Below, piece after piece: positions 22,059-24,734 of a stretch of DNA of 50,696 nt (positions are counted from its first letter, which is position 1; every line of letters starts with the position of its first letter). Under the pieces are notes generated by a model. The model saw only the letters and a program-made list of their open reading frames with translations, did not search any database and was not told the origin of the DNA. Origin of the DNA: Crocinitomicaceae bacterium (GTDB taxonomy: Bacteria; Bacteroidota; Bacteroidia; Flavobacteriales_D; Crocinitomicaceae); assembly GCA_021740745.1 (NCBI GenBank), contig JAIOZF010000012.1, forward strand, positions 1 through 50,696. The letters run 5' to 3'. A program made the translations under genes and the position numbers.

Positions 22059-22061
22059 TTG

Positions 22062-23303
22062 ATGTACGAAATACAACCCGTTTTATTTACGCTTTCAAAT
22101 GGCATTCGTGTTGTTTACTTGCACGCACCTGCTCAGGTCGCTCACTTGGGTATTACGGTTTTGGGCGGATCAAGATTTGAGCTACCCAATGAAGATGGAT
22201 TGGCGCATTTTTTAGAACATTGTATTTTCAAAGGTACCACGAAGCGTAAAGCTTTTCATATTTTGTCTCGACTCGATTCAGTCGGGGGAGAATTAAACGC
22301 ATATACAGCGAAAGAGGAGATTTGTGTTTATGCTTCGTTTACGAAAGAACATATTCGTCGTGCATCCGAATTATTGGCAGATATTACGCTGAATTCCAAT
22401 TTCCCGCTGAAAGAAATTATCAAGGAAAAGGAAATCATTATCGATGAAATAAATTCATATTTGGATAGTCCAAGTGATAAGATTTTCGATGATTTTGAAG
22501 GATATTTATTCCAAGGACATGCTTTAGGGAACAATATTCTTGGTACAAAAGAGCGTGTACAAAGTTTTACCCGTGAACATTTGATAGACTATGTAAAACG
22601 CTTTTTCACAGCAGATAATATAGTTATTTCTTTTGTTGGAGATATCTCAAAGCATAAATTGGAGAAAATTCTTGAAGAGGATTTTAAACATTGTCCAAAG
22701 GGAAATCACCAACCAATCATCGAAACTTTTGAACCAAGAGCTCCTTTTCATATCCGATCAAAAGAGGCCAATTATCAGGTTCATGCAATTGTTGGTGGAT
22801 TAGCTCCTAATTACAAGGATGAGTCGAGAAGAGGAATGATTATGCTTACGAACATTCTTGGTGGACCAGCATTAAATTCGCGATTGACACTTTCAATTCG
22901 TGAGAAATATGGTTACTCCTATAATGTAGAAGCGAATTACACACCATACGTTGACACTGGTTTTTGGAGTGTTTATTTGGGGACGGATCCCAAATACATT
23001 GATAAATCGTTGTCGTTGATACGCAAAGAACTCAAATTATTGAGAACAAAAAAACTGGGAATTTTGCAATTGAATCGAGCAAAAGAACAGTTGAAAGGAC
23101 ATTTAGCACTTGGCTTAGATTCTAATTCAGGTTTGATGTTAGGACTTGGAAAATCTTTGTTGCTTTTTAATCAAATTGATACAATTCAAGAAATTTACGC
23201 TGGAATAGATAAGCTAACAGAAAGTGAATTATTGGAAATTGCGAATCGCTATTTTGCGGAAGATAATTATTCAGAACTCGTATTTGATATTCAAGAAGGA
23301 TAA
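22062..23303 (+). CDS. M16-family zinc peptidase (cytosolic-type)
   Basis: The 413-residue peptidase has the inverted zinc motif HFLEH in GLAHFLEHCIFKGT, the distal acidic helix KEKEIIIDEINSY, and a non-catalytic second half with LGGPALNSRLTLSIREKYGY, typical of processing-peptidase-like proteins of the PqqL/YmxG type. No signal peptide is present, unlike the two M16 proteins at 15-18.6 kb, so it works in the cytosol unless exported otherwise. The ATG at 22062 is preferred to the TTG just before it. It is the last gene of the DUF4494-pdxH operon. Its 3' end is duplicated downstream as part of a ~45-bp direct repeat. Confidence 0.93.
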   Translation: MYEIQPVLFTLSNGIRVVYLHAPAQVAHLGITVLGGSRFELPNEDGLAHFLEHCIFKGTTKRKAFHILSRLDSVGGELNAYTAKEEICVYASFTKEHIRRASELLADITLNSNFPLKEIIKEKEIIIDEINSYLDSPSDKIFDDFEGYLFQGHALGNNILGTKERVQSFTREHLIDYVKRFFTADNIVISFVGDISKHKLEKILEEDFKHCPKGNHQPIIETFEPRAPFHIRSKEANYQVHAIVGGLAPNYKDESRRGMIMLTNILGGPALNSRLTLSIREKYGYSYNVEANYTPYVDTGFWSVYLGTDPKYIDKSLSLIRKELKLLRTKKLGILQLNRAKEQLKGHLALGLDSNSGLMLGLGKSLLLFNQIDTIQEIYAGIDKLTESELLEIANRYFAEDNYSELVFDIQEG

Positions 23304-23336
23304 TCAATCCTTAATTCTATAAAGTGTTTTCGATCT
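23292..23336. repeat. ~45-bp direct repeat, left copy
   Basis: This segment starts in the last codons of the M16 gene (CAAGAAGGATAATC...) and recurs at 24140-24185. The first 39 bp are identical; a single-base insertion separates a further six matching bases (CGATCT). The two copies flank the RAYT/REP insert. Confidence 0.9.
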
Positions 23337-23460
23337 CATGCTCCGCAGGATTTGTAATCCTGCGGAATATGTTAGAAATACTTTTAACGAATCGTTTGTA
23401 ACCTAGCAGTAATACAATACACTTCCGGTAATATTGATTCTTTTTCGTGATAATTACTTG
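23336..23460. repeat. 125-bp tandem duplication, copy A
   Basis: This 125-bp unit is repeated immediately after itself at 23461-23585 with six substitutions. It contains a REP-like hairpin and, on the minus strand, a degenerate copy of the last ~25 codons of the RAYT gene. Confidence 0.93.
23342..23366. repeat. REP-like hairpin 1
   Basis: Perfect 11-bp arms (left arm TCCGCAGGATT) with a 3-nt loop TGT. The same hairpin recurs at 23467, and a compensated variant at 24105. Confidence 0.85.
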
Positions 23461-23585
23461 TCATGCTCCGCAGGATTTGCAATCCTGCGGAATATATTAG
23501 AAATACTTTTAATGAATCGTTTGTAGCCTAGCAGGAATACAATAAACTTCCGGTAATATTGATTCTTTTTCGTGATAATTACTTG
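23461..23585. repeat. 125-bp tandem duplication, copy B (contains RAYT 3' end)
   Basis: This copy includes the functional stop and last ~25 codons of the RAYT gene plus REP-like hairpin 2. It is about 95% identical to copy A by direct comparison. Confidence 0.93.
23467..23491. repeat. REP-like hairpin 2
   Basis: Perfect 11-bp arms (left arm TCCGCAGGATT) with loop TGC, located 18 bp beyond the RAYT stop codon. Confidence 0.85.
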
Positions 23586-24084
23586 CCGATGAATATTTCC
23601 ATTCTGATTCATGATTTACAAATCCTTCTTCGACAGGATTCATATGAATATAATTGATTTTATCCCAAGTAAACTTTTCCTTATACAACTCTATTGCGTG
23701 ATTTCCTTCTTGCCAAAATTTGTAATTTTTATGTTTCGGACTATTGTCTGCAGCTTTAGTAAACTCTTTCAGCATCCATTCTCTTCGAGATTCTGGCTCA
23801 TTCAATATTTGATTCAATATTTTTTTTGATGAAAATTTTTTAAAATCCCGAATTACGTCCTTTAACTCAAAAGGTTCGTTGCAATTAGCAATCAAATTCA
23901 GGTGATTTGACATCAAACAAAAACTATATATGTTCAAACCTTTGTTCTCAATGCAAAAACGTAAAGAATCAATAATTGCATCTTTGTGATTTTTTCGAGT
24001 GAAAACATCAATCCACTCAACTACGGTAAGTGTAAGAAAATAGCTGCTATTCTTTTTTATTGTGTGTTTAACTCCTTGTTTCAT
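23509..24084 (-). CDS. REP-associated tyrosine transposase (RAYT, Y1_Tnp family)
   Basis: The 191-residue protein belongs to the IS200-like Y1 transposase family, group found as single-copy RAYTs: SSYFLTLTVVEWIDVFTR, CLMSNHLNLIANC, then DFKKFSSKKIL, KFWQEGNHAIELY, INYIHMNPVEEGFV and WKYSSASNYH. The expected HUH metal site is HLN here, its second His replaced by Asn. The tyrosine nucleophile is probably that in NYIHMNP. Family knowledge: RAYTs cut and move REP hairpins by single-strand chemistry. REP-like hairpins lie on both sides of this gene in opposite orientation, so it forms a REPtron-like unit. It sits as an insert between two convergent genes. Confidence 0.88.
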   Translation of the reverse strand: MKQGVKHTIKKNSSYFLTLTVVEWIDVFTRKNHKDAIIDSLRFCIENKGLNIYSFCLMSNHLNLIANCNEPFELKDVIRDFKKFSSKKILNQILNEPESRREWMLKEFTKAADNSPKHKNYKFWQEGNHAIELYKEKFTWDKINYIHMNPVEEGFVNHESEWKYSSASNYHEKESILPEVYCIPARLQTIH

Positions 24085-24104
24085 TCAATTAAGCTAATCA
24101 TTAT

Positions 24105-24129
24105 TCCTCAGGATTGCAAATCCTGAGGA
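24105..24129. repeat. REP-like hairpin 3 (compensated variant, inverted)
   Basis: Perfect 11-bp arms (left arm TCCTCAGGATT) with loop GCA. Relative to hairpins 1 and 2, one base pair per stem has changed on both arms together, preserving pairing. The loop orientation is reversed compared with hairpin 2. Confidence 0.85.
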
Positions 24130-24139
24130 GCGTGCTATA

Positions 24140-24185
24140 CAAGAAGGATAATCAATCCTTAATTCTATAAAGTGTTTTACGATCT
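24140..24185. repeat. ~45-bp direct repeat, right copy
   Basis: This copy repeats the end of the M16 gene (out of context here) and contains the genuine 3' end of the minus-strand secreted-protein gene. Confidence 0.9.
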
Positions 24186-24703
24186 TCATTAATCATTACC
24201 CATTTTAGTGGAATGGTGAAATCAAATTCTTCTTTGTAAAAGGAGTAGGAGAGTCCAAAACAACACGTACAAGCGCAGTTCCCACCATAGCCAATAAATA
24301 TAAGATTGAGAATGGTATCGTTGATGGTGCCTGCATCACCAAGAAAGTTGTGACAGCAATTTGAACCAATTTGTATGGATACAAAGAAGGCACTATCTGT
24401 TTGTGAGATTGATTCAACATGGTCGATCACTTCACGCTCTCCTAAAGAATTACAAGGAGCTCCAATCATTTCGTTTAGCCATAAACCATTCGTTCCATAT
24501 AATCCAATTTGATTCGATGTAGTTGGAATCGCCATTGTTCCAAACAATATTTGTCCATCCATTGGACTGTCAATCAAAATGGTGTCGTTTTTCTTTAGTT
24601 CGATAAATTCTGGATTTTTAGGATACACTATAATAACAGTATCAGATTGACTAAAAATCTGTGAGCTGAATGCAACAAATAAATAAAAAAGGACATTTTT
24701 CAT
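24152..24703 (-). CDS. Cysteine-rich secreted protein of unknown function
   Basis: The 183-residue protein has a signal peptide (MKNVLFYLFVAFSSQIFS, cleaved near FSQ). The mature region is beta-like with pairs of cysteines clustered late: GSNCCHNFLGD and GGNCACTCCFGLSY, plus one Cys in GAPCNSLGE. Such clusters suggest disulfides or metal binding outside the cytoplasm. I recognise no domain. The ATG five codons upstream gives a poorer signal peptide, so 24703 is preferred. The 3' end lies in the right copy of the flanking direct repeat, and the original convergent neighbour was probably the M16 gene. Confidence 0.65.
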   Translation of the reverse strand: MKNVLFYLFVAFSSQIFSQSDTVIIVYPKNPEFIELKKNDTILIDSPMDGQILFGTMAIPTTSNQIGLYGTNGLWLNEMIGAPCNSLGEREVIDHVESISQTDSAFFVSIQIGSNCCHNFLGDAGTINDTILNLIFIGYGGNCACTCCFGLSYSFYKEEFDFTIPLKWVMINEDRKTLYRIKD

Positions 24704-24734
24704 TGTTGAAAAGTACATAATTCAAAAATCAAAT

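Follow-up and report, generated by a model that had tools for sequence, protein, structure and literature searches.

A REP-RAYT-REP unit inserted with a long target duplication between convergent genes, and recurrent long duplications at a minority of RAYT loci

How does an element come to occupy the junction of two convergent genes, and why does a piece of that junction stand on both of its sides? The question is raised by a DNA stretch of 50,696 nt (the window) from a Crocinitomicaceae bacterium (GCA_021740745.1, contig JAIOZF010000012.1). To our knowledge, insertion with a long target duplication is not the expected mode for the enzyme family to which RAYTs belong, and the insertion route of IS200/IS605 elements is duplication-free. 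The locus is composed of the following features:

22059..23303, plus strand: M16 peptidase gene, ending in the left copy of the repeat (Pfam, ORF)
23292..23336: target duplication, left copy (39 identical bp, then CGATCT); four congeners have one junction here
23336..23585: tandem pair of 125-bp units, each combining the 3' part of the RAYT coding sequence with a REP (repeat D1, 95%)
23337..24139: REP-RAYT-REP insert, 803 bp, missing at the same site in L009, L010, L013 and L014
23337..23371: outer left REP palindrome (inverted repeat I4)
23462..23494: inner left REP palindrome (inverted repeat I1)
23509..24084, minus strand: RAYT gene, 191 aa, HUH motif changed to NHLN (Pfam Y1_Tnp; NCBIfam NF047646; alignment)
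24102..24134: REP on the right side, in inverted orientation to those on the left (I1 and I2, 88-91% complementary)
24140..24185: target duplication, right copy (39 identical bp, then ACGATCT)
24152..24718, minus strand: convergent gene of unknown function, ending in the right copy (ORF; no Pfam match at E 0.001)

The preliminary description of this DNA had reported an 803-bp insert between convergent genes with flanking repeats of about 45 bp, and this is confirmed: 39 bp are identical (23292-23330 and 24140-24178), six further bases match after a 1-nt indel (CGATCT at 23331-23336 on the left, ACGATCT at 24179-24185 on the right), and exactly 803 bp (23337-24139) separate the two copies. Outside the exact block a weaker similarity can be expressed as 46 bp ungapped at 96% or as a 53-column alignment with 50 identities. 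The ORF coordinates likewise bear out that the M16 gene ends in the left copy and the minus-strand gene in the right one. A chance origin of the repeat is excluded, because the flanks score 84 and the 504 mismatched flank pairs reach at most 27, and because a comparable repeat was found in 0 of 265 decoy intervals.

Inverted REP palindromes flank the gene on both sides (23337-23371, 23462-23494 and 24102-24134), as is characteristic of RAYTs. The 17-base REP core has three exact matches in this genome, all at the window locus, so that by this count, which covers exact copies, the cognate REPs are not dispersed in the host genome as they would be for a typical RAYT. A tandem duplication also marks the left end of the insert (23336-23460 and 23461-23585, 125 bp, 95%), a detail absent from the preliminary description. 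A repeated RAYT 3' end downstream of the gene also occurs at L105, L137, L038, L270, L276, L298 and L326; in the window it comes together with a REP. An extra piece of RAYT lies nearby at 11 of 155 loci, one of which, L081, holds two RAYT genes.

The window protein matches Pfam Y1_Tnp and scores 92.5 bits against the NCBIfam model of REP-associated tyrosine transposases (NF047646, curated cut-off 80), and it stays below the cut-off of the NCBIfam IS200 transposase profile (21.7 bits vs 55); a search of solved structures gave no match at E 0.001. Its HUH motif reads NHLN at residues 60-63, with asparagine in place of the second histidine (window 23896-23898), and the catalytic tyrosine of YIHMNP is present. 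Both HUH histidines are kept in all eight aligned relatives. Since the second one is lost, the window RAYT is probably inactive and unable to move now; the protein appears to be a RAYT by descent whose activity is doubtful. The same genome encodes one other RAYT, on contig C36, which shares 65% identity with that of the window and is associated with a different REP; at L268, in another family, the RAYT is 68% identical to that of the window and the REP is very similar.

The preliminary description had proposed aligning the junction from relatives in search of an empty site, and such sites, with one junction each, were found in four congeners (G006, G012, G002 and G017, at L009, L010, L013 and L014, respectively). 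They came from a search with the M16 protein in 25 other genomes of the genus, 24 of which match at E 3e-121 or better and one (G011) at 6.8e-16 only; the empty-site set comprises these four congeners, and among the others the gene next to M16 is in some cases a different one or more diverged. At L014 the copy match is too weak for BLAST, and the junction call there is based on gene structure and alignment. A RAYT search with E limited to 1e-10 gave nothing in G006, G012 and G002 and a single match in G017, on another contig. Because the insert-free congeners have one junction, the window event is an insertion accompanied by a long duplication of its target, and the duplication arose with or after the insertion. 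The earlier suggestion that collapsing one copy plus the insert rebuilds the ancestral junction is thus supported by the four empty sites.

In all four empty-site congeners the M16 gene and its convergent partner overlap by 4 nt. With overlapping ancestral genes and no free base between them, a duplication-free insertion would therefore have cut at least one gene; at the window locus both gene ends are complete despite the insertion. The locus departs from IS200/IS605 insertion, since 39 exact and six further bases are duplicated at a site that has a single junction in relatives.

Whether the window stands alone was addressed by gathering RAYT loci from the genus, family, order and class, and testing those with at least 150 bp on both sides. 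This gave 94 + 58 = 152 tested loci, some of them orthologous to each other and together only a part of all RAYT matches; 11 retrieved loci were too short and left out. Duplications other than REPs, of 25-92 aligned bp, lie beside the unit at 10 of the 152 loci, corresponding to nine independent insertions: the window, L079, L081, L082 with L083, L086, L119, L137, L268 and L304. They belong to eight genera of three families, and the aligned lengths are 25, 26-32, 38-39, 43, 53, 60, 64, 82 and 92 bp. No copy is more than about 25 bp away from the outer REPs, except at L079 (about 40 bp on one side). The decoy interval pairs, drawn from the first 94 loci, gave 0/265 against 9/152 (Fisher P about 1e-4), where decoys passed through the mechanical filter only and loci through the filter plus a judgement by eye that removed more rows than it added. 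Among 3906 mismatched flank pairs, the 17 matches scoring at least 44 were, by eye, REP sequence or one homologous pair. Long duplication is hence a recurrent minority outcome and no private accident of the window locus, and the finding is more general than the preliminary description stated.

The judgement by eye worked as follows. Eleven rows passed the filter among the first 94 loci, and four of these were dropped: L095 and L106, whose repeats are REP sequence (by eye); L118, with only 21 bp, about 400 bp off on both sides; and L237 (G029), with 158 identities in 173 columns, where the repeat is the 3' end of a gene and L238 (G028) has the same RAYT insertion without a second copy, the two differing by about 1 kb on the side of the repeat. 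From the second set of 58 loci, displayed with a looser filter, L283, L297 and L311 (REP sequence, by eye), L290 (78% over 100 columns, resembling related genes), L324 (score 39) and L301 (28 bp exact, with about 670 bp between the gene and the left copy) were rejected. L121 and L130 have more than two copies of the repeat and were also set aside. L081 was kept with three places, failing the two-places filter, as its 64-bp copies abut the unit, and L079 was kept though about 40 bp separate the right REP from the right copy. At the E. coli K-12 rayT locus, direct repeats of at least 18 bp were of REP type only.

Relatives provide an empty site for four of the nine insertions (the window, L082, L086 and L137). 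At the L082 site, one copy stands at the junction in L181, L183, L184 and L185. At the L137 site, the gene pair abuts or overlaps in all six relatives (gaps of -9, -4, -12, -4, 1 and 1 nt). Only L162 and L165 keep enough similarity for BLAST to identify one copy at the gene end, the others being diverged, and L159 (G011) shares the L137 insertion on a contig that stops next to the RAYT. For L086, the gaps are -4, -4, 159, 6, 64 and -48, i.e., four of six relatives abut or overlap, on the assumption that the partners are orthologous. A prior tandem duplication of the junction, with the unit later inserted between the copies, would result in the same flanking repeat; we nevertheless regard it as very unlikely, as it asks for two independent events meeting at a copy boundary nine times, and a bare tandem copy is absent from every examined empty site.

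Sites related to these were not uniform. L181 (G199) is without a RAYT, and L179 (G201), L180 (G226) and the less similar L187 (G182) have one there; loss by recombination between the copies is a possible cause of the absence in G199. L103 (G182) carries a RAYT at the L082 insertion site, where a second copy was not found, and L182 (G213) has, close to where L082 was inserted, a REP pair without RAYT and without duplication. Relatives such as L250 and L251 are without the element of the L138 site (G017), and an insertion apparently common to G021 shows no convincing duplication.

The window genome is a metagenome-assembled genome in 137 contigs, and an assembly artefact would be another reading of the repeat. 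We consider this extremely unlikely, since the pattern recurs in other genomes, including L119 (G106:C1) within a single contig of 4.4 Mb, and the two copies have diverged from each other at several duplication loci.

Most of the tested RAYT loci are without a long duplication. For 14 elements the ends could be set by a related unit at another site, in some cases adjusted by eye, and 14/14 are without flanking duplication, a count that is to be read with the caveat that erosion or rearrangement may have removed repeats and that the pairs do not tell which copy is the newer. Their best flank matches score 12-19 (95th percentile of the null, 20) and do not overlap with the 43-150 of the nine duplication cases. 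The earlier proposal to survey other RAYT copies for flanking repeats thus had a divided result, with long duplications at nine independent insertions and none at most tested loci, the 14 elements with defined ends among them. The claim that the window event is unlike the duplication-free route of IS200/IS605 has partial support.

These comparisons also touch on mobility. RAYT genes 93-99% identical occupy different sites at L228 (G031:C5), L229 (G031:C76), L231 (G036:C18) and L232 (G027:C12), and two copies of G500 (L271 and L272) are 96% identical at different sites. The former set comes from three species in a single genus and suggests that these units moved recently. Both sets are among the related units by which element ends were set. 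Because related copies occupy different sites, the sequences suggest that the RAYT gene or unit itself moves. This appears to run against statements in the available text of two papers, according to which evidence that the tnpA-REP gene is mobile is lacking (PMC8266576) and typical signs of mobility were not found (PMC2817692).

Two main rival explanations compete for the joining step. A RAYT, or a dimer bound to the inverted REPs, could insert a double-stranded unit at widely staggered cuts, gap filling then duplicating the target. Inverted REPs at or near both unit ends, adjoining the duplication, fit such a scheme, as do duplications at same-strand junctions. A fixed stagger is, however, disfavoured because the length varies from 25 to 92 bp; the 14 defined-end elements have no duplication, the junctions share no target motif that could be seen by eye, and E. 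coli TnpA-REP is reported, in the accessible part of PMC8266576, to cleave and join single-stranded REPs in vitro. We therefore rate staggered cutting as rather unlikely.

About equally improbable, in our estimate, is a capture independent of RAYT, in which a REP-RAYT fragment is pasted in by end joining or template switching and the hairpin REPs merely set the break points. The variable length speaks for it, as do the extra tandem RAYT pieces at some loci, which would be expected from slippage, and the broken HUH motif of the window RAYT. Yet the units end at or near outer REPs in all nine cases, and related units with matching ends occur at several sites, which points to an element-specific process. 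Repair-associated or template-switch capture, which the preliminary description had named as an example of another route, is a possible course of events at the window locus itself.

Starting from what is seen directly, i.e., insertion, duplication, its variable length, unit ends at or near REPs and the existence of duplication-free elements alongside, we infer the joining step, and hence the mechanism, as follows. By comparison with the empty sites, the REP-RAYT-REP unit was inserted whole into a convergent junction overlapping by about 4 nt, leaving some 45-53 bp of target on both sides. RAYT units would usually join DNA without target duplication: a 3' end abutting the 5' end at the join would give none. 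If, before joining, synthesis had carried the receiving 3' end beyond the downstream 5' end, e.g., through displacement of a strand at a nick or an Okazaki junction or through template switching at a fork, the overlap would be duplicated and its length would equal that of the displaced strand, so that one chemistry could yield both outcomes. The enzyme responsible would probably be an active RAYT, either the window copy before its decay or a relative acting in trans; RAYTs are linked to the long-duplication events by association.

Selection may in addition favour the retention of duplications in targets without spare bases, as both gene ends are regenerated. This part of the proposal is weak, because convergent sites are not significantly enriched (5/9 duplication loci vs 31/117, P 0.12), and a duplication is less needed at four of the nine insertions, which lie at same-strand junctions. 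Taken together, we give whole-unit insertion with usually duplication-free joining, duplication from an over-extended 3' end and possible selective retention an even chance of being correct.

Among known systems, RAYT/TnpA-REP (the REPtron) shares with the window a Y1 HUH protein above the NF047646 cut-off and inverted REPs around the gene; different here are units at different sites, a site that is empty in relatives and some long duplications. By motif, the nearest group is the Bacteroidetes subclass 2.6 (group 5) described in the available text of PMC6006769, an assignment made from NHLH and YIHNNP of the relatives and no tree. IS200/IS605 elements have the catalytic superfamily (Y1_Tnp), palindromic ends and, as in the 14 defined-end RAYT elements, no flanking repeat in common with these units, and differ in the nine insertions with 25-92 bp duplications, the IS200 profile below its cut-off and the mutual inversion of the REPs. 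REPINs or BIMEs, as presented in the portion of PMC3116915 at hand, also have an inverted REP pair as probable mobile unit, whereas the unit here includes the RAYT gene and its 17-base REP core is, within this genome, confined to the window locus. The accessible sections of PMC2817692, PMC3116915, PMC3686654, PMC6006769, PMC8266576 and PMC3733652 describe no long duplication at a RAYT.

The spread of RAYT genes and REPs is called unresolved in the available parts of PMC8266576 and PMC2817692. Empty sites, related copies elsewhere and duplications of variable length now provide concrete insertion events and a testable prediction for the joining step, and they illustrate how entry of an element into a site without intergenic space may leave the genes unbroken. 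We tentatively suggest, as a possibility short of an even one, that RAYT units could be actively mobile in gene-dense Bacteroidetes and have a second route of insertion, in which joining across an over-extended nick duplicates tens of bases. If so, a single-strand transposase would be able to settle in overlapping gene pairs with neither gene harmed, which would help to explain the location of REPs at gene ends.
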